Below, piece by piece: positions 4,377 through 47,678 of a DNA stretch of 64,000 bases (the first letter of the stretch is position 1; each line of letters opens with the position of its first letter). The position numbers and the translations under genes are program-made. Origin of the DNA: Nitrosophilus labii (lineage in GTDB: Bacteria > Campylobacterota > Campylobacteria > Campylobacterales > Nitratiruptoraceae). The stretch spans positions 434,001 to 498,000 of the forward strand of contig NZ_AP022826.1 in the NCBI RefSeq assembly GCF_014466985.1, read 5' to 3'. The notes below the pieces were generated by a model. That model was not told where the DNA came from. It worked only from the letters and a program-made list of their open reading frames with translations, and made no database searches.

Positions 4377-4850
4377 ATGAAAGTAGTGGTTATACAGGGT
4401 CCAAACTTAAATATGTTGGGGCTAAGAGAACAAAATATCTACGGTCCTATGAAACTAGAAGATATACATGCCCAGATGAGAGCTTTTGCCGAGCAAAACG
4501 GTATGGAGATAGAGTTTTTCCAAAGCAACCTTGAAGGAGAGATAGTCGATAAGATCCAAGAGTGCTTAGGTGACGCCAACGGGATTATCATCAACCCTGC
4601 CGCATATACACACACTTCAATTGCTATAAGAGACGCCATTGCAGCGGTACAGTTGCCTACTATAGAGGTACATATCTCAAACATATACAGACGAGAAGAG
4701 TTTAGACAAAAATCATTGATTGCTCCTGTATGCGCCGGACAAATAAGCGGTTTTGGACCTTTTAGCTACCATCTAGCCATGGTTGCTATGCTACAAATTT
4801 TCAATGAGATGAAAGCGCTTCAAGAGGCGCAAAAACAGCAACAAGCATAA
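4377..4850 (+). CDS. aroQ: Type II 3-dehydroquinate dehydratase
   Basis: Catalyses the third step of the shikimate pathway, dehydrating 3-dehydroquinate to 3-dehydroshikimate. The 157-residue protein matches the small type II enzyme along its length: [17 protein letters not shown] at the N-terminus with the catalytic Tyr (Y22), the NPAAYTHTS loop, and the [13 protein letters not shown] segment with the catalytic His. Family members form dodecamers in the cytosol. The start has a good AAAAGGA ribosome-binding site. It is the first gene of the apparent operon aroQ-pepQ-folK-flhG, whose order is typical of Campylobacterota. The C-terminal tail rich in Gln and Ala ([12 protein letters not shown]) is a family-variable extension. 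Confidence 0.97.
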
Positions 4851-4872: not shown

Positions 4873-5892
4873 ATGGAAAATTATATTTTAAAAGATGAAA
4901 ACGCCGTATATTACGATTGTGGTTACTCTTGCGATAATGAAATATTTTTGAAAGTAGGGGATGAAACCTACTTTTTTACTGACGCTAGATATAGCCAAGA
5001 TGCAAAAGAGAATATAAAAGAAGCGTATGTTGTTGAGACTCGCTCACTCCTAAAAAGCGTAAGAGAGGTACTTAGAAAAAAAAGAGTCAAGAAGCTTGTT
5101 TACGATCCTAAAGATTTTACAGTTGCACAATTTGAAGAACTGAAAAAAAGCGGGGTATATCTCATACCAAAACCTATGTTTTCTTGGAAAAAAAGAGCTA
5201 TAAAAAGTGATGAAGAGATAGAGCTTATAAAAAAAAGCGCTCAAATAAACAAAAAAGCTTTCGATAAGTTTGCCTCTTTTTTGGATAGAGAGGGGAGAAA
5301 TAGGAGTGAGAAATTTTTACAATTTAACTCAAAAATCATCTTAAGCGATTTTGGCGAAAGAGATCTTAGTTTTGAGCCGATATTTGCGATAAATGAAAAT
5401 GCGGCAAAACCTCATGCCCATCCAACCCCTAAAGTTTTAAAAAATGGAGATTTGATACTTTTTGACGCTGGAGTAAAATATAAAAGATACTGCTCTGATA
5501 GAACGAGAACTTCTCTTATTAGCGATGGATTAACATTTGAGTATAAGCAGAGTTTTAATAACTCAAATATACAAAAAGCATACGATCTAGTTTTAAAGGC
5601 GCACGATGAAGCGATAAAAAGGGCTAGAAGTGGGATGAGAGCCAGAGAGATAGATAAAATAGCAAGAGATGTGATAGAAAAAGGGGGTTTTGGAGAGTTT
5701 TTCGTACACTCAACCGGACACGGCGTAGGACTTGATATCCATGAAATGCCTTTTATCTCCTCAAAAAGCGAGACTATAATCGAAGATAATATGGTTTTTA
5801 CTATAGAGCCCGGTATATATATACCAGGAGAGTTTGGTATAAGAATCGAAGATATGGTGGTGATGAGAGGTGGTAGAGCCGAAATTATTTGA
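4873..5892 (+). CDS. pepQ: Xaa-Pro aminopeptidase (M24 family)
   Basis: A cytosolic metallopeptidase that removes N-terminal residues preceding proline. It has a creatinase-like N-terminal domain (about residues 1-120) and a pita-bread M24 catalytic domain. The five metal ligands are visible: Asp in LILFDAGV, Asp in RYCSDRTRT, His in HSTGHGVGLD, Glu in TIEPGIY and Glu in GIRIEDMVV. At 339 residues it is a normal length. The start has a GGGAG ribosome-binding site 23 bases after aroQ. In Helicobacter and Campylobacter a peptidase of this kind sits between aroQ and folK. pepQ is used here as a family label; a pepP-type name is equally possible. Confidence 0.88.
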   Translation: MENYILKDENAVYYDCGYSCDNEIFLKVGDETYFFTDARYSQDAKENIKEAYVVETRSLLKSVREVLRKKRVKKLVYDPKDFTVAQFEELKKSGVYLIPKPMFSWKKRAIKSDEEIELIKKSAQINKKAFDKFASFLDREGRNRSEKFLQFNSKIILSDFGERDLSFEPIFAINENAAKPHAHPTPKVLKNGDLILFDAGVKYKRYCSDRTRTSLISDGLTFEYKQSFNNSNIQKAYDLVLKAHDEAIKRARSGMRAREIDKIARDVIEKGGFGEFFVHSTGHGVGLDIHEMPFISSKSETIIEDNMVFTIEPGIYIPGEFGIRIEDMVVMRGGRAEII

Positions 5893-5936: not shown

Positions 5937-6443
5937 ATGATTTTAGGAGTCTGTTTGAGAAGAAAAATAGGTAAAAATTTAGAGCTATTTTATATAGACA
6001 GCTTTCCCTTTGTTAACCCTAAGCCTAAAAAACTACCCCATAGAGTTACTCTAGGAATTGGTGGTAACGTTGGAGATGTTAGAAGAAGATTTAAAAAGCT
6101 ATTTTTTATGTTAAAAAATAACCGTAAAATCTCTATAGTATCTACCTCTCCTCTATTGAAAAACCCTCCATTTGGATATGAAGATCAGCCATATTTTTTT
6201 AATGCCATTATTCATCTTTATACTAAGATGAATCCGGAGAATTTTTTAGATTTTTGTTTAAAGACCGAAAAGAGATTTAAAAGAGTTAGGTCATTTAAAA
6301 ATGCTCCTAGGACACTGGATATGGATATAATCTTTTTTGATAATAAAAAAATTGAAAAAGATAACCTCAAAATACCACATCCAAAATGGAAAGAGAGAGA
6401 TAGTGTAGTTATTCCTCTAATATTGATGGGAGATGACTTTTGA
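5937..6443 (+). CDS. folK: 2-amino-4-hydroxy-6-hydroxymethyldihydropteridine pyrophosphokinase
   Basis: Transfers pyrophosphate from ATP to 6-hydroxymethyl-dihydropterin in folate synthesis. HPPK motifs are present: LGIGGNVGD, the NPPFGYEDQPYFFNAI substrate segment, the RVRSFKNAPRTLDMDII signature and IPHP. At 168 residues it carries about 35 extra N-terminal residues relative to the short E. coli type, as is common in this phylum. The start is uncertain: there is no strong ribosome-binding site, and an in-frame stop lies 9 bases before the ATG. The 3' end overlaps the next gene (TTG start across the stop), implying translational coupling. folB is encoded far away at 58.6 kb. Confidence 0.92.
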   Translation: MILGVCLRRKIGKNLELFYIDSFPFVNPKPKKLPHRVTLGIGGNVGDVRRRFKKLFFMLKNNRKISIVSTSPLLKNPPFGYEDQPYFFNAIIHLYTKMNPENFLDFCLKTEKRFKRVRSFKNAPRTLDMDIIFFDNKKIEKDNLKIPHPKWKERDSVVIPLILMGDDF

Positions 6444-7246
6444 GATTTATAACGATTACTAGCGGTAAAGGCGGAGTAGGGAAAAGTACTATTAGTGCTA
6501 ATCTCTCTTTTGCACTCTCTCAATATGGATATAAAGTTGCTCTTTTTGACGCCGATATAGGACTTGCCAACTTAGATATTATTTTGAATGTTCAGCCTAA
6601 AAAAAATATTTTGGATGTTCTAAAAGGAGAGAGTGAATTTGAAGAGATTCTGATAAATGTAAATAAAAATTTAGTTTTAATTCCTGGTGAAAGTGGAGAA
6701 GAGATTCTTAGTTTCAAAGATGAGGAGTTGATAGAGAAATTTTTGGAAGGAACTAAAAATTTCAAAGATTTTGATTTTTTGATTATAGATACGGGAGCCG
6801 GAATAGGAGATAGCGTTAGAAGCTTTATAAATGCTTCTACAGATACGATTATAGTTACAGTACCGGATCCTGCTGCGATTATGGATGCTTATGCCATGAT
6901 TAAATATTCGAGTAAGATAAAAGATAAGATCTTTATGATTTTAAATGAGGTAAAAAATCAAAAAGAGGCTTTAGGGATATTTAACAAAATAAAAAGTGTA
7001 GCGCAAAAACATCTTAATAAAAAAACAGAACTTGAATTTTTAGGGTATATAGAACAGAGCCTGCTTATCACACAAGCCTCTAAAAACAGAGAACTGTTTA
7101 TAAAAAAAGAGCCTATGTCCAAGTCCTCTTTGCAACTTGTACAAATTGTCAAACAATTGACATCAAATCTTACAAAAGATGGCAAAAAAATAGATAAAGA
7201 AAACTCTATATCCACTTTTTTTAAAAGACTGTTTTTGAATTTTTAA
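6440..7246 (+). CDS. flhG: FlhG-like MinD/ParA-family ATPase without the N-terminal FlhF-binding region
   Basis: A cytosolic deviant-Walker ATPase of the FlhG (YlxH) group, which sets flagellar number and site together with the GTPase FlhF. It has the deviant Walker A box SGKGGVGKST, DADIGLANLD, the Walker B-like LIIDTGAG and the PDPAAIMDAYAMIK segment seen in Campylobacter FlhG. The protein begins directly at the Walker A strand. A TGA lies in frame two codons before the TTG start, and a GGGAG ribosome-binding site fits that start, so no N-terminal helix with a DQA-type motif can be encoded. The C-terminus ends in a short amphipathic, membrane-targeting-like helix (STFFKRLFLNF). flhF, which separates folK and flhG in Helicobacter pylori and C. 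jejuni, is absent here. Confidence 0.82.
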   Translation: MRFITITSGKGGVGKSTISANLSFALSQYGYKVALFDADIGLANLDIILNVQPKKNILDVLKGESEFEEILINVNKNLVLIPGESGEEILSFKDEELIEKFLEGTKNFKDFDFLIIDTGAGIGDSVRSFINASTDTIIVTVPDPAAIMDAYAMIKYSSKIKDKIFMILNEVKNQKEALGIFNKIKSVAQKHLNKKTELEFLGYIEQSLLITQASKNRELFIKKEPMSKSSLQLVQIVKQLTSNLTKDGKKIDKENSISTFFKRLFLNF

Positions 7247-7296: not shown

Positions 7297-8313
7297 GTGA
7301 GCAAAGTTTTGGTAGCGATGAGTGGGGGAGTTGATTCTACGGTTACTGCATATCTTCTTAAAAAAGAAGGTTTTGAAGTTGAAGGTGTATATATGAAGAT
7401 ACACACTCGAGAGGATTTGCATCAAAGATATCTAAAAAACGTAGAGAAGGTTTCAAATTTTCTTGGCATTAAAGTTCATATCTTAGACAAGACTCAAGAG
7501 TTTTTGGAAAAAGTTTATAATCCATTTGTTAACGGTTATATTGAAGGTAAAACACCAAATCCTTGTGCAGTATGTAACAGATATATGAAATTTGGAGCAT
7601 TAGTAGATGTGGCTGATTCGGTTGGGGCAAACTTTTTTGCTACAGGTCACTACGTAAAATGTGACGGAAAATATCTTTATGAAGCAAAAGATAAAAGTAA
7701 AGATCAAAGCTATTTTCTTTTCAATATAAAAAGAATGGTTCTGCCTAGATTGATTTTTCCATTAGGAGATATGTACAAAGAGGATGTAAAAAAAATAGCT
7801 GCTTCCATAGAGCCTCTTAAAGAGATTGCAGCTCAAAAAGAGAGCAGTGAGATATGTTTTGTGGAAAATACATATATAGATATATTAAAAGAGCATACTA
7901 AAGTAGATACACCCGGAGAAGTTATCGATAAAGATGGTAGAGTGATAGGAGAGCACAAAGGATATATGCACTATACTATCGGAAAAAGAAAAGGATTCAT
8001 AGTTTATGGTGCTCGTGAACCTCATTATGTATTAAAAATTATTCCGGAAAAAAACCAAATAATGGTAGGTAAAAGAGAGGAACTTGAAGTAAAAAGAGTT
8101 AGGCTAAAAGATTTAAATATGTTTGAAGAGAAAAAAGAGTTTGAAGCTACTATAAAAGTTAGATACAGAACACATAAAGTTCCCTGTTTAGTGCAGATAA
8201 AAGATAATATAGCCGATGTGAGTCTAAAAGAGGGAGTATTTGGGGTAGCGAGCGGTCAGGCAGGAGTATTTTATGAGGATGAAAAAGTATTAGGAGGCGG
8301 GTGGATTGTTTAA
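7297..8313 (+). CDS. mnmA: tRNA-specific 2-thiouridylase MnmA
   Basis: Thiolates U34 of tRNA-Lys, -Glu and -Gln, taking sulfur from a persulfide relay. The PP-loop MSGGVDST is at the N-terminus. The nucleophilic Cys is in TPNPCAVCNRYMKFG and the second catalytic Cys is in SSEICFVE. The central and C-terminal beta-barrel domains complete a 338-residue protein, slightly shorter than the E. coli enzyme. The start is GTG behind a GGCGGAG ribosome-binding site. A TATAGT-like box just upstream suggests its own promoter. It follows the flhG-like gene by 50 bases on the same strand, but the functions are unrelated. Confidence 0.96.
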   Translation: MSKVLVAMSGGVDSTVTAYLLKKEGFEVEGVYMKIHTREDLHQRYLKNVEKVSNFLGIKVHILDKTQEFLEKVYNPFVNGYIEGKTPNPCAVCNRYMKFGALVDVADSVGANFFATGHYVKCDGKYLYEAKDKSKDQSYFLFNIKRMVLPRLIFPLGDMYKEDVKKIAASIEPLKEIAAQKESSEICFVENTYIDILKEHTKVDTPGEVIDKDGRVIGEHKGYMHYTIGKRKGFIVYGAREPHYVLKIIPEKNQIMVGKREELEVKRVRLKDLNMFEEKKEFEATIKVRYRTHKVPCLVQIKDNIADVSLKEGVFGVASGQAGVFYEDEKVLGGGWIV

Positions 8314-8396: not shown

Positions 8397-8422
8397 TCCA
8401 AAAAAAATGTACGGGAGATATG

Positions 8423-9352
8423 ATGCGAGGATATAAGATTTTTTCGGGAACGGCTCATCCTGAGTTTGCAAAAGAGATAACCAAATATCTTGATGTACCT
8501 TTAAGTAAAGCTACCGTTAGTAGATTTAGCGATGGAGAGATAAATATACAGATTTCAGAGAGCGTTAGGGGTAGAGACGTATTTATAGTACAACCTACGG
8601 GAAGTCCGGCAAACGACAATCTTATGGAACTGCTTATTATGACTGATGCTTTAAGAAGAAGCAGCGCAAATACCATCACTGCTGTAATACCATATTTTGG
8701 CTATGCTAGACAAGATAGAAAAGCCGCGCCAAGAGTGCCGATTACCGCTAAACTAGTTGCGAACCTTATAGAAAAAGCTGGGATTACGAGAGTTATTACT
8801 ATTGATCTTCATGCTGGGCAGATACAGGGTTTTTTTGATATTCCAGTTGACAATCTTTACGGAGCTATAATATTTATGGATTATGTTAAAAACAAAAATT
8901 TTAAAAATCCAGTTATTGCAAGTCCCGATATCGGAGGAGTTGCAAGAGCAAGATACTTTGCAAGCAGACTTGGGATGGATATGGTAATAGTAGATAAAAG
9001 AAGAGAAAAGGCCAATGAGTCCGAAGTTATGAACATCATTGGAAATGTGGAAGGAAAAGATGTTATTTTGGTAGATGATATGATAGATACGGCCGGAACT
9101 ATAGTAAAAGCTGCGGCGGCTTTAAAAGCAAAAGGGGCTAAATCCGTGATGGCATGTTGTACTCATCCAGTTCTTAGCGGTCCTGCATATGAGAGAATTG
9201 AAAATGGGAAGTTGGACGAACTTGTGGTTTCAAACTCTTTGCCTTTGAAAAAAAATACCGAAAAAATCAAAGTTTTGTCTGTAGCACCCCTTTTTGCCGA
9301 AGTTATTAGAAGAGTGTATCATAACGAGAGTGTTAATAGTTTGTTTATTTAG
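8423..9352 (+). CDS. prs: Ribose-phosphate pyrophosphokinase
   Basis: Makes PRPP from ribose 5-phosphate and ATP, feeding nucleotide, NAD, His and Trp synthesis. Family motifs are clear: FSDGEINIQI, the ATP-binding QPTGSPANDNLMEL, the ARQDRKAAPRVPITAK flexible loop, DLHAGQIQGFFDIPVDNL, and the PRPP-binding loop VDDMIDTAGTIVKAA. Two ATGs lie in tandem at 8420 and 8423. The GGGAG ribosome-binding site is better spaced for the second, giving 309 residues. Three PRPP-using enzymes are encoded in the window (comF family, nadC, and indirectly pyrF). Confidence 0.97.
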   Translation: MRGYKIFSGTAHPEFAKEITKYLDVPLSKATVSRFSDGEINIQISESVRGRDVFIVQPTGSPANDNLMELLIMTDALRRSSANTITAVIPYFGYARQDRKAAPRVPITAKLVANLIEKAGITRVITIDLHAGQIQGFFDIPVDNLYGAIIFMDYVKNKNFKNPVIASPDIGGVARARYFASRLGMDMVIVDKRREKANESEVMNIIGNVEGKDVILVDDMIDTAGTIVKAAAALKAKGAKSVMACCTHPVLSGPAYERIENGKLDELVVSNSLPLKKNTEKIKVLSVAPLFAEVIRRVYHNESVNSLFI

Positions 9353-9427: not shown

Positions 9428-11218
9428 TTGGACAATATTAGAAACTTTTCCATCATAGCTCATATAGATCACGGAAAAAGTACCCTTGCCGACAGACTTA
9501 TACAAGAGTGTGGTGGTATTGAAGATAGAAAGATGAGCGAACAGATGCTCGATACTATGGATATAGAGCGAGAGCGCGGTATCACTATCAAAGCGCAAAG
9601 CGTTAGACTAAAATATAATAAAGATGGAAAAGAGTATATTTTAAATCTTATAGATACTCCGGGACACGTTGATTTTAGTTATGAAGTTAGTCGCTCTTTG
9701 GCTTCTAGTGAAGGTGCTCTTTTGGTAGTGGACGCTAGTCAAGGAGTAGAAGCGCAAACGATTGCCAATGTCTATATAGCACTGGAAAACGACTTGGAAC
9801 TAATTCCCGTTATAAACAAGATAGATCTTCCAGCTGCAGATCCCGACAGGGTAAAAGAGGATATAGAAAACAGTGTAGGATTAGATTGTACGGATGCCTT
9901 AGAGGTGAGTGCTAAAACGGGACAGGGCATAAAAGAGCTTATAGATGCTATTATAGATAGGATTCCGGCTCCAAAAGGAGATCCCAAGGCTCCTTCTAAA
10001 GCTTTGATATACGATAGCTGGTTTGATAGTTATCTAGGAGCTCTGGCACTTGTGAGGGTTTTTGACGGTGAGATAAGAAAAGGTCAAGAAGTATTGGTTA
10101 TGGGGACCGGTAAAAAGCACGAAGTTTTGGAACTTATGTATCCTCATCCTATAAAGCCTCAAAAGAGTGAGAAAATAGCAACCGGTGAAATCGGTATAGT
10201 AGTTATGGGACTTAAAAATATCGGTGATGTTCAAGTTGGAGACACCATCACTGATGCCAAAAATCCTACTCCTGAACCGATTGAAGGATTTGAAGAAGCC
10301 AAGCCTTTTGTATTTGCTGGACTCTATCCGATAGATACGGATAAATTTGAGGATCTAAGAGACGCTTTAGATAAACTTAAACTTAATGATGCAAGTATAA
10401 CATACGAGCCTGAAACTTCAGCGGCTTTGGGTTTTGGTTTTAGAGTAGGGTTTTTAGGGCTTTTGCATATGGAAGTTGTTAAAGAGAGGTTAGAGAGAGA
10501 ATTTGGGCTCGATCTAATAGCCACAGCGCCAACCGTTACATACAGAGTTTTGAAAACCGACGGCGAGGAGTTGGAGATACAAAACCCCAGTGAACTTCCT
10601 CCCGTTCAAGAGATTGAGAAGATTTTCGAGCCTTACGTAAAAGCTACTATTATAACTCCTACCGAGTTCTTGGGAAATGTTATAACACTTTTGAACGAAA
10701 AAAGAGGTGTTCAAACAAAGATGGACTATCTTACAGAAGATAGGGTTTTACTTGAGTATGAAATACCTATGAACGAGATAGTTATGGACTTTTATGATAA
10801 GCTAAAAACCGTTACAAAAGGATATGCCAGTTTTGATTATGAGCCTAGCGGCTACAAAGAGGGTGATTTGGTAAAACTAGACGTTAGAGTTGCTGGAGAA
10901 GTTGTAGATGCTTTATCTATCATTGTTCCTAAAGAGAAAGCTCAATATAGAGGAAGAGAACTTGTTAAAAAGATGAAAGAGATTGTCCCTAGGCAGCTTT
11001 TTGAAGTAGCTATACAAGCAAGTATAGGAAATAAGATAATAGCAAGAGAGACTGTTAAATCTATGGGTAAAAATGTTACTGCTAAGTGTTATGGGGGAGA
11101 TATCTCTAGAAAAAGAAAACTTCTTGAGAAGCAAAAAGCCGGTAAAAAGAGAATGAAAGCCATAGGAAAAGTTCAGTTGCCTCAAGAGGCTTTTTTAACC
11201 GTATTAAAGATAGATTAG
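9428..11218 (+). CDS. lepA: Elongation factor 4 (LepA), ribosomal back-translocase
   Basis: A translational GTPase that rebinds stalled or post-translocation ribosomes. The G-domain motifs are complete: AHIDHGKST (P-loop), [10 protein letters not shown] (switch I), DTPGHVDF (G3) and NKIDLPAAD (G4). They are followed by domains II, III and V and the LepA-specific C-terminal domain, which is rich in Lys and Arg ([18 protein letters not shown]). At 596 residues it is exactly the family length. It starts at TTG behind an AGAAGGAG ribosome-binding site. The next gene, a lipoprotein, follows after 9 bases, so the two are probably cotranscribed. Confidence 0.98.
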
Positions 11219-31099: not shown

Positions 31100-34024
31100 T
31101 TGGATATCGATACAAAAGAGCTTAATGAACTTTTAAACAACAAAAAGAGACTTTTAACGGATATCTATTTTGAACTTCAAAAAGTTTTTGAGGCTAAATA
31201 TGGTCAAAACACCGTAGTGCTTATGGAGGTTGGCTCCTTTTTTGAAATTTACGAGGTTAATAACGAAGAGTTTAAAATCGGTAAAGCAAAAGAGATAGCC
31301 GAATTTTTAAATATTCAGCTTACTAGAAAAAACAAATCGATTTTGGAAAACTCCGTAGCCAATCCTTTAATGGCCGGAGTTCCAAATTTCGCATTAGAGA
31401 GATATCTAAATCGTCTAGTTCAGAGTAAAAAATATACTATCGTTTTAGTTAAACAAAAAGGGGAGCCTCCCAATGTAAAAAGATATATATCAAACATAAT
31501 ATCTCCGGGAACAAATTTCGATTATCAAGTAGAGCCTACGGAAAACTACATAGTTTCGCTGATTATAGGGGAAAATAGAGGGATATATTATGGAGGATAT
31601 GCGGCAGTTGATGTTACTACCGGCAAATGTTTTGTAAACGAGATCTACTCTACGAGGGACGACAAAACCTACGCTTTGGATGAGATATTTAATCTTTTGC
31701 AAACTTACAATACTTCAGAAGTAGTCATAACTTTTGATACCGATACTGACAAAGAGTTTATATACAACTATCTAGAGATTAAGAATCACTACACTTTTAA
31801 CGAAAACAAAGAACGAGTCAAGATAGGTTACCAAAACGAACTGTTTGCAAAAATTTTTTCTATAAACTCCATTTTGACTCCTATTGAGTATTTAGATCTT
31901 GAGAGATATCCTTATGCGAGTGAAACTCTTGCATTTTTGCTAGATTTTATCATCGAACATGATCCGGTTATTATTGAAAAGCTTAATCGTCCTGTATTTT
32001 TGGGAAATCGACACTTTGTCTATCTTGGAAACAACGCTCTTGAGCAGCTAAATATCATCTCAAGAGACCCAGACGAGATGACTCTTTTAAAACTTCTTGA
32101 CAAAACCTCGACTCCTATAGGAAAAAGGCTTTTAAAAGAGAGGCTTTTAAATCCTATAATGGATGAAAAAGAGCTAAATAGAAGATATGAACTGATTGAA
32201 TCTTTGTTGGAGGATTATCCTAAATTTGAGAGGCTTTTAAAACAGGTTTACGATATAGAGAGGATTTTAAGAAGAATAAAACTGAAAAAAATACACCCTT
32301 TTGAGATAAATTATCTCCACTCCTCTTTATACTCTATTGAGAAACTCTTTAAAGAGGTTCAAAAGTATAGTTTAGGGATAGAAAATTTTTCAATTGATGA
32401 GGTTTATGGATTTAGAAAAGAGTTGGAAAGAATTTTTGATTTTGAAGAGAGTGCTAAATATAGAAGAGACCAGATAGCTGGGAATATTTTTAATCCTGGT
32501 GTAAATATTTTTATAGATAAGATAGAAGAGGAGATAAAGGATGTACTTGAAAAATTAGAAACTATAAAAAAACATATCTCCTCCTTTTTTGATTTGGAAG
32601 AGGATTACGTAAATATAGGTTGGCTCGATAGCGAAGGATTTTACCTGACACTTACCAAAAACAGATTCGCAGCTATCGAAAAAGAGCTATTGAAAAGTTT
32701 TGTTACTATTGACAACAAGCACTACTTTTTAAAAGATTTTAACTACAAAAGATTGAAAAATAGCGTCAAGATAACCTCTGAACTGATAGATGAGCTTTCA
32801 GGCCAATATACCACTTTGCATTCTCGACTAGTAGCGCTTGTTAAAAAAAGTTTTTTAGATACTTTAAGTGAGTTGGAAAGACTATATAGTGCTCTTTTAG
32901 AAAAATTGATAACTTTTATAGGAGAATTGGACTTTGCCATAAGTGGAGCTAAAAGTGCAGTGCTTTATAACTATACCAAGCCTATTATCAGCAAGAGTGA
33001 GACTTTAGAGTTTATAGGACTTCGCCATCCTATTATCGAGTCTAGAGAAGAGAACGGCATATATATACCAAATGATCTCCTACTAGGCGTAATTCCAAAA
33101 GATCTTGAACATAATCACATAACTTTGGAAGCGAGTGATAATAAAGAGGTTAAGGGAATATTGCTTTACGGTATCAACTCCAGCGGAAAATCATCTCTTA
33201 TGAAAAGTGTAGGAATTGCAGTAATTATGGCGCAGGCTGGTTTTTTTGTACCGGCGGCTTATATGAGATTTTCACTTATAGACAAACTATTTACAAGAAT
33301 TATCTCAAAAGATAATCTATACAAAGGGCTTTCCACATTTGCCATAGAGATGCTTGAACTAAAAAACATATTTAACAGAGCTACAAAAAACTCTTTGATT
33401 TTAGGAGATGAGATAAGTCACGGGACGGAGACGTATTCAGCTCTATCGATTGTTAGCGCAGCTATAAAAAGACTTAGTGAAATAGGCTCATATTTTATCT
33501 TTGCTACGCACCTTCATCAGCTAACAGAGATAAAGAGTATAAAAGAGATAGAAAATATTATATTTTTGCATCTTGGAGTTACTTATGATGAAGAGAGCGA
33601 TAGACTCATCTATAACAGAAAGCTTCAAATAGGAAGCGGAAGTACTTTGTATGGTCTTGAGTTTGCAAAAGCTTTACACATGGATAAAAGATTTTTGGAT
33701 GAAGCTTATAGGATAAGGAAAGAGCTTACAAAAGAGTTTAGTGAAATGGAGCTTTTAAAAAGGAAAAGAAGAAGCAGATACAATAAAAGCTTATATCTGA
33801 CAAAATGTGCTATCTGTAATGAGATAGTTGAGGAAGTACACCATATAGAGCCCAAATCCAAAGCAAATAGAGGTTTCATAGAGCATTTTAAGGCAAACCA
33901 TAGATTTAACCTGATACCTTTATGTTCCAAGCATCATAGAATGGTTCATGAAGGCAAACTGATAATCAGCGGTTTTGTTATGACTGAAGAAGGTCTAAAG
34001 TTGCATTATATTGAAATTGATTAA
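31100..34024 (+). CDS. MutS7-type DNA mismatch repair protein with C-terminal HNH nuclease domain
   Basis: A 974-residue MutS homologue. An N-terminal mismatch-recognition-like domain carries the FxE-type motif in [12 protein letters not shown]. Connector, core and clamp domains follow, then the ABC ATPase with Walker [16 protein letters not shown], the [13 protein letters not shown] signature region, Walker [13 protein letters not shown] and FATHLHQL. After a basic linker, about 60 C-terminal residues form an HNH nuclease motif: [16 protein letters not shown], then [17 protein letters not shown]. This MutS+HNH architecture is MutS7, described from some epsilonproteobacteria, octocoral mitochondria and giant viruses. 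The start is TTG with no strong ribosome-binding site. Fusion of mismatch sensor and nicking nuclease could make it independent of MutL/MutH, which is an inference. Confidence 0.9.
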
Positions 34025-46586: not shown

Positions 46587-47678
46587 TTATTCTAAGTTCT
46601 CTTTTTCAACCAATATTTTATCTAGGATTTCAAAAACTTTTTTACTACCTTCCTCCATCTCTTCTAAAGCCGCAATTAATTCATCAAATGAATAATCTTT
46701 ACCCGTAAATATCAAATCAAAAATATTCTTAGTACCCTTATGAACTATCTCATGAGGAGTCTCTAATAAATCAAAAGATGGTACGGTTGAAAAAAACTCT
46801 TTTCCCTCTCCTTCATAATACCACTTTCCCAATCTACACTCGTGAAAATCCACATAATCAAAAACCTGTTCATTTTTTATTACGGAAAGATAGGTATTTA
46901 CTTTCCATATAATATGATCTAATTTAGCCAAACTCATAAAAATTCTATTTGATATTTTAATAATTTTATCAAATGTTTTATTTACACTAATATTTATTTC
47001 TGAAAGCTCTCTTCTAAAATTTTCAATCTTTAAATCTATTTTTTCTATCTTTTCGCTCACTTCAGTAGCGATTACATCAACGTCGTTCATCTCCTCTTTC
47101 ATAGTCTTTATAATTTTGTCAACTTCTCTAACCGCCTTTTGCGTTCTATCAGCAAGATTTCTCACCTCTTCTGCAACTACTGAAAATCCTTTTCCAAACT
47201 CACCGGCTCTTGCAGCCTCTATAGCCGCGTTAAGAGCTAGAAGATTGGTTTGTTCGGAGATCTCTTTAATCAATGAAAGTATTCTATCTACCTCTTCGGT
47301 TCTTTCAAAAAGTTCTTGTACGCTATTTTTAGATTTATATGCTGTTGAATTAAGCACGTTTGTATCGTTCATTATAGAGGTTATGCCCTCTACTATCTCG
47401 TTAAATTTGTTATTTAAATCGGTAGCGGAATGGATGGTGGTTTTGGCTTCATTAACAGATTCTGCAATATTTGATTGAATATCTACAAGACCAAATTTTA
47501 GATTTTCGTTTTCCAATTTACACAACTCTTTAAAATCCTTTTTAGTATCTATATTTTTCAATTCTTTACTCGTTAGACTACTTTTTAGCTCTTCGTTCTC
47601 ATTTTTTAGTCTGTTATTCTCATCTTTAAGTTTTTCAATAACTTTTTCGAGCTCTTTTTCTCTTTTAGAAAAAAACAT
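46587..47678 (-). CDS. Cytosolic chemoreceptor with C-terminal CZB zinc-binding domain (TlpD-like)
   Basis: A 363-residue soluble methyl-accepting protein without membrane spans. An N-terminal coiled coil (about 1-60) is followed by a signalling hairpin whose tip reads [21 protein letters not shown], then [20 protein letters not shown]. The C-terminal CZB domain has the zinc ligands His in [12 protein letters not shown], Cys in [15 protein letters not shown] and His in TPHEIVHKG. In Helicobacter pylori the CZB receptor TlpD senses oxidants through the Cys-Zn site. A similar redox or energy-taxis role is likely here. A -10-like TATAAT lies upstream near 47720. It stands alone, next to a small gene of unknown function. 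Confidence 0.93.

Follow-up and report, generated by a model that had tools for sequence, protein, structure and literature searches.

A solitary FlhG lacking the FlhF-stimulating helix in Nitrosophilus labii is almost certainly a native Campylobacterota protein kept beside a second flagellar FlhG

The window analyzed here is a 64,000-nucleotide stretch of the 2.09-Mb genome of Nitrosophilus labii (C1:434001-498000). It encodes a solitary FlhG, hereafter FlhG' (gene flhG'), which sequence comparison identifies as almost certainly the native FlhG of Campylobacterota, inherited by vertical descent. We consider it reasonably likely, as the best overall explanation, that this native protein was kept for a positioning task that depends on neither the flagellum nor FlhF. 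The features of the locus are collected in Table 1.

Table 1. Features at and around the flhG' locus (positions within the window)
Feature	Position	Strand	Remarks
aroQ, ancestral neighbor	4377..4850	+	gene order compared with relatives
pepQ-like peptidase, ancestral neighbor	4873..5892	+	gene order compared with relatives
folK	5937..6443	+	TIGR01498, 118 bits, above cut-off; 4-base overlap with flhG' start
GGGAGA ribosome-binding site, within the end of folK	6428..6433	+	
In-frame TGA, two codons 5' of the flhG' start	6434..6436	+	rules out an N-terminal enhancer helix
flhG', solitary FlhG, MinD-like ATPase without the FlhF-stimulating enhancer helix	6440..7246	+	268 aa, TTG start
Deviant Walker A loop GKGGVGKS, residues 9-16	6464..6487	+	residues 8-15 invariant across FlhG'
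C-terminal amphipathic helix SISTFFKRLFLNF, putative membrane-targeting sequence	7205..7243	+	modeled helix 256-266; moment 0.55
mnmA	7297..8313	+	next gene after flhG'; follows flhF-flhG-flgV-fliA-fliM-fliY in flagellated relatives
prs, downstream ancestral neighbor	8420..9352	+	gene order compared with relatives
lepA, downstream ancestral neighbor	9428..11218	+	gene order compared with relatives

As described in the first-pass annotation, folK runs straight into flhG', and its stop codon (TGA, 6441-6443) falls within the TTG start of the latter. The absence of flhF and fliA near flhG' in the window was likewise borne out, mnmA being the next gene. The product contains ParA/MinD domains by Pfam comparison and shares 46-88% identity with the copies in 20 other genomes of the family. 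Because the start residue is identical (M/L-R-F..TSGKGGVGK) in 21 of 22 family genomes, and most of these starts follow a GGAG/GAGG-like site, the reading frame is neither a chance occurrence nor a sequencing slip. folK was located upstream of flhG' in all 21 family loci. For the 22nd genome (G013), a loss of flhG' was rejected because the contig breaks there, ending inside mnmA.

Elsewhere in the genome, one full-length FlhF is encoded at C1:1301.8-1302.9 kb and is followed by a second FlhG, referred to as the island FlhG. The order flhA-flhF-flhG-fliA lies inside a long flagellar operon including flgFGAHI, flgBC, fliE, and fliF, where the names of the structural flagellar genes were taken from the translations. 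The island FlhG starts with MEDQAKGLRELV, which is the enhancer-helix motif with DQAxxLR kept. As the first-pass annotation had predicted, no such FlhF-stimulating helix can be encoded by flhG', given the upstream TGA codon; the QAxxL motif was present in none of 21 FlhG' copies, compared with 19 of 19 island FlhG and 41 of 42 native FlhG proteins. Separately, an FlhF-linked FlhG without the QAxxL helix was observed in family f9 (L081, genome G064); there AKGGVGK replaces GKGGVGK and the branch is very long, and the FlhF-FlhG pair of G064 thus has no stimulating helix.

The window protein was then compared across 249 genomes of the phylum. FlhG' showed 48-54% identity to the FlhF-linked FlhG of other families (E about 1e-80), compared with 41% to its own flagellar FlhG (1e-44). 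Among relatives, several families share the order aroQ-pepQ-folK-flhF-flhG-orf(~120 aa)-fliA-fliM-fliY-mnmA, followed in some by prs and lepA; the small gene after flhG corresponds to flgV (PMC10655999; PMC9321776). The window's family shares these flanks, with flhG the sole gene left between folK and mnmA. The closer identity to native proteins and the ancestral aroQ-pepQ-folK...mnmA locus therefore point to FlhG' as the native FlhG left behind. In a maximum-likelihood tree, the 21 FlhG' proteins clustered as a single clade within the native FlhG proteins, with the Nautilia-like family as a weakly supported sister, and the clade of native FlhG, FlhG', and the copies of genus g18 described below received support of 87/76. 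Outside the native clade, Pseudomonas FleN and Geobacillus FlhG were joined by the 19 island FlhG proteins. An AU test against FlhG' and island FlhG as one clade gave p 0.083 with an lnL difference of 27.9, which is suggestive without firmly rejecting that grouping; synteny and identity thus carry the argument for native descent together with the tree. Origin by recent duplication of the island FlhG was judged unlikely from the same identities (41% versus 48-54% to native) and trees. According to Mo et al. (2022, PMC9321776), Nitratiruptor acquired its chemosensory and flagellar genes from Aquificota, with complete removal of the original set, and our naming of Aquificota as the donor rests on that study. 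The native flhG is an exception to this reported removal, and the claim is corrected to that extent.

Next, we considered whether FlhG' has the features of a working protein. D37, D39, D117, and N169 are kept in FlhG'. An AlphaFold (AF2) model reached a pLDDT of 88.8 and placed the C-terminal helix at residues 256-266; the moment of this helix was 0.55 versus 0.63-0.72 in native FlhG. The C-terminus is of the FFKRLL type as in native FlhG, unlike that of the island FlhG. The best PDB matches of the model were FleN (5j1j, TM 0.83) and FlhG (4rz2), and the Pfam and PDB comparisons together placed FlhG' nearest to FleN/FlhG, with MinD next. The dN/dS of flhG' was 0.04-0.115 (about 0.04-0.12), and wherever a pair allowed both values to be computed, folK had the higher one. 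Judged at the sequence level, the descent of FlhG', the collapse of its locus, its conservation, and its intact catalytic and membrane motifs are established; by these marks FlhG' is functional and has ceased to depend on FlhF, and a biochemical activity of the ATPase kind is presumed.

Compared with known systems, FlhG' is orthologous to the FlhG of C. jejuni and H. pylori by tree, identity to native relatives, and locus, and has the ATPase motifs and the FFKRLL-type C-terminal helix in common with them. Unlike those proteins, it has neither the DQAxxLR helix nor adjacent flhF, flgV, fliA, fliM, and fliY, and it coexists with a second, acquired FlhG. Thus, the marks of native FlhG descent were found (tree and locus, Walker A, catalytic Asp, and C-terminal amphipathic helix), whereas two marks of an FlhF-FlhG switch, the enhancer helix and an flhF directly upstream, are missing. 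Pseudomonas FleN (5j1j) and Geobacillus FlhG (4rz2) share the fold (TM 0.80-0.85) and the ATPase residues of FlhG', but identity is about 30% and FlhG usually has an enhancer helix and an flhF partner; the island FlhG falls on their side of the tree. MinD resembles FlhG' in fold (TM about 0.75), deviant Walker A, C-terminal membrane helix, and the lack of an N-terminal extension. However, FlhG' lies outside the MinD clade, which is separate with support of 100/100, and the genome has no MinC. A misnamed MinD was accordingly rejected, the NCBIfam MinD model giving 120.7 bits against a cut-off of 212.9.

A solitary FlhG was found again in genus g18, which is probably the non-flagellated Campylobacter clade (ureolyticus/gracilis/hominis) named in PMC9321776. 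FlhA and FlhF were each detected in 0 of 14 of its genomes, and flhG alone is kept in 10 of 14, between folK and orf207-mnmA (pepQ-folK-flhG...mnmA) and without the helix. This solitary retention is independent of that in the window's family. Three genomes carry a clean deletion of flhG at the locus, and the catalytic Asp or other catalytic residues are lost in several copies (G046, G226, G078, and G156). Because of this decay and clean absence, flhG is dispensable in g18. No MinD was seen in the genus. The copy of G226 (in the set L121-L128, L085, and L090) also bears a long low-complexity insertion.

The mirror image, FlhF alone, was observed in the Sulfurovaceae-like family f4. In all five loci examined (L174-L178; genomes G219, G192, G154, G073, and G024), FlhF is present and FlhG is not; mnmA follows FlhF immediately or after a single small open reading frame, and folK is visible upstream in three. 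The SRP-GTPase core is present in all five and the GTPase loop is clearly kept in four; identity was 37-46% to native FlhF versus 30-37% to island FlhF. Loss of all flagellar genes has been reported for Sulfurovaceae-like bacteria (PMC9321776), and we take f4 to be without flagella from that report together with the collapsed folK-mnmA locus. The two halves of the FlhF-FlhG switch have therefore been uncoupled at a single locus in either direction, FlhG alone in the window's family and g18, and FlhF alone in f4. In the Nautilia-like family f5, one genome (G101, locus L179) lacks FlhG and has a second, partial mnmA-like gene beside mnmA.

To account for FlhG', we propose that an ancestor of the Nitratiruptor-like family lost its native flagellum and gained a flagellar operon of Aquificota type, which brought a separate flhF-flhG pair. 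Deletion of flhF on one side and of flgV-fliA-fliM-fliY on the other would then have emptied the folK locus around a retained flhG, which would have lost only its N-terminal FlhF-activating helix. The remaining protein would be a complete MinD-type ATPase, undergoing ATP-driven dimerization, membrane binding through the C-terminal helix, hydrolysis, and release, and this cycle probably serves positioning that is independent of flagellum and FlhF, foremost perhaps by keeping the Z-ring off the poles.

That FlhG' works outside the FlhF-FlhG switch is, on these sequence data, quite probable, and a second job of FlhG gains probability because the flagellum-less g18 also kept the same gene alone. 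Placement of the division site as the specific task is put forward only tentatively. It is favored since MinC (PF03775) is absent from the window genome (G000) and none of its other ParA-like proteins is a MinD, this set comprising the island FlhG, a ParA encoded next to ParB, and Mrp of two types. Against a division role, the gene decays in g18, and 5 of 22 family genomes have weak, sub-cut-off MinC-like matches and MinD-like genes and still keep FlhG'. These genes lie side by side in G001, G009, G011, G012, and G014, all of one genus, and are patchy in an otherwise Min-less family. Balaban and Hendrixson (2011) reportedly found that FlhG limits polar division in Min-less C. jejuni, and at normal levels this role needs the MS ring and the switch. 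In the bacterium considered here, neither MinC nor MinD was found. Nevertheless, in C. jejuni FlhG normally works with FlhF and with the native MS ring and switch, whereas the corresponding partners of FlhG' (FlhF beside the gene, MS ring, and switch) are absent or foreign, and by this analogy the dependence on flagellar rings counts against a division role of FlhG'.

Alternatively, FlhG' might still act for the acquired flagellum: without the capacity to stimulate FlhF, this second FlhG could adjust flagellar number or gene expression, for instance through pairing with the island FlhG or through binding to C-ring proteins. Every FlhG' genome comes from a flagellated group, the island flhF-flhG was seen in almost all of them, and Bacillus FlhG binds the C-ring protein FliY (PMC12327844). 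We nevertheless regard such a role as rather unlikely, given that g18 kept the same gene alone without flagella, that the core and C-terminus of FlhG' resemble the native and not the acquired system, and that the locus no longer encodes the native partners FliM, FliY, and FlgV.

The first-pass annotation had suggested that FlhG was repurposed, perhaps for pili. Retention for a job other than FlhF control is supported by the native locus, purifying selection, and g18, but placement of type IV pili, or of some other surface machine at the pole, appears improbable. Pilus/secretion ATPases (PF00437) occur in 2-5 copies in every tested genome with a solitary FlhG, and pilT is expressed in a related Nitrosophilus (PMC11539149). 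However, no covariation of FlhG' with type IV pilus ATPases was observed and coevolution was rejected, because PF00437 was present in 30 of 30 tested genomes, including Sulfurovaceae-like and g18 genomes without FlhG, and none of the loci examined shows a pilus gene beside flhG'. It is more improbable by far that FlhG' is a decaying leftover without function, as the lost catalytic residues and three clean deletions of g18 might suggest; that decay does not transfer to the window's family, where all 21 copies are intact within an unbroken locus, catalytic residues are invariant, and the low dN/dS led us to reject a pseudogene. Finally, the proposal that FlhF is missing from the lineage and flagella are placed in its absence, raised in the first-pass annotation from a window without flhF, was wrong and is virtually excluded, since genome-wide searches recovered a full-length FlhF from 20 of the 22 family genomes, the window genome included, directly 5' of the second, DQA-helix-bearing FlhG in the large flagellar operon. 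This is the finding that the first-pass annotation itself had named as refuting evidence.

Previously, FlhF and FlhG have been described as consistently encoded together, forming one switch for flagellar number and place, and flhG as consistently downstream of flhF (reviewed in PMC12826062). Here, FlhG alone outlasts a complete flagellum exchange and, in g18, complete flagellum loss, and FlhF alone outlasts in a third group. With some reservation, we suggest that FlhG may have an ancestral, flagellum-independent function in marking the division site or the pole, separable from FlhF in Campylobacterota, such that solitary FlhG arose twice from the same locus, each time losing the helix, while f4 kept FlhF alone. 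If so, evolution would have split both halves of the switch, each with work outside flagella. These lineages offer clean material for probing whether FlhG has a MinD-like division role, a question dating from the C. jejuni minicell work.

Two other genes of the window were recorded. The CZB-domain chemoreceptor that the first-pass annotation listed among the chemotaxis genes was confirmed at 46587-47678; it lies away from the flagellar operon and is possibly a component of the partial F9 chemosensory set known from Nitratiruptor. At 31100-34024, a MutS-like protein of 974 aa shows a weak, sub-cut-off HNH_2 match at its C-terminus, making it an unusual MutS.
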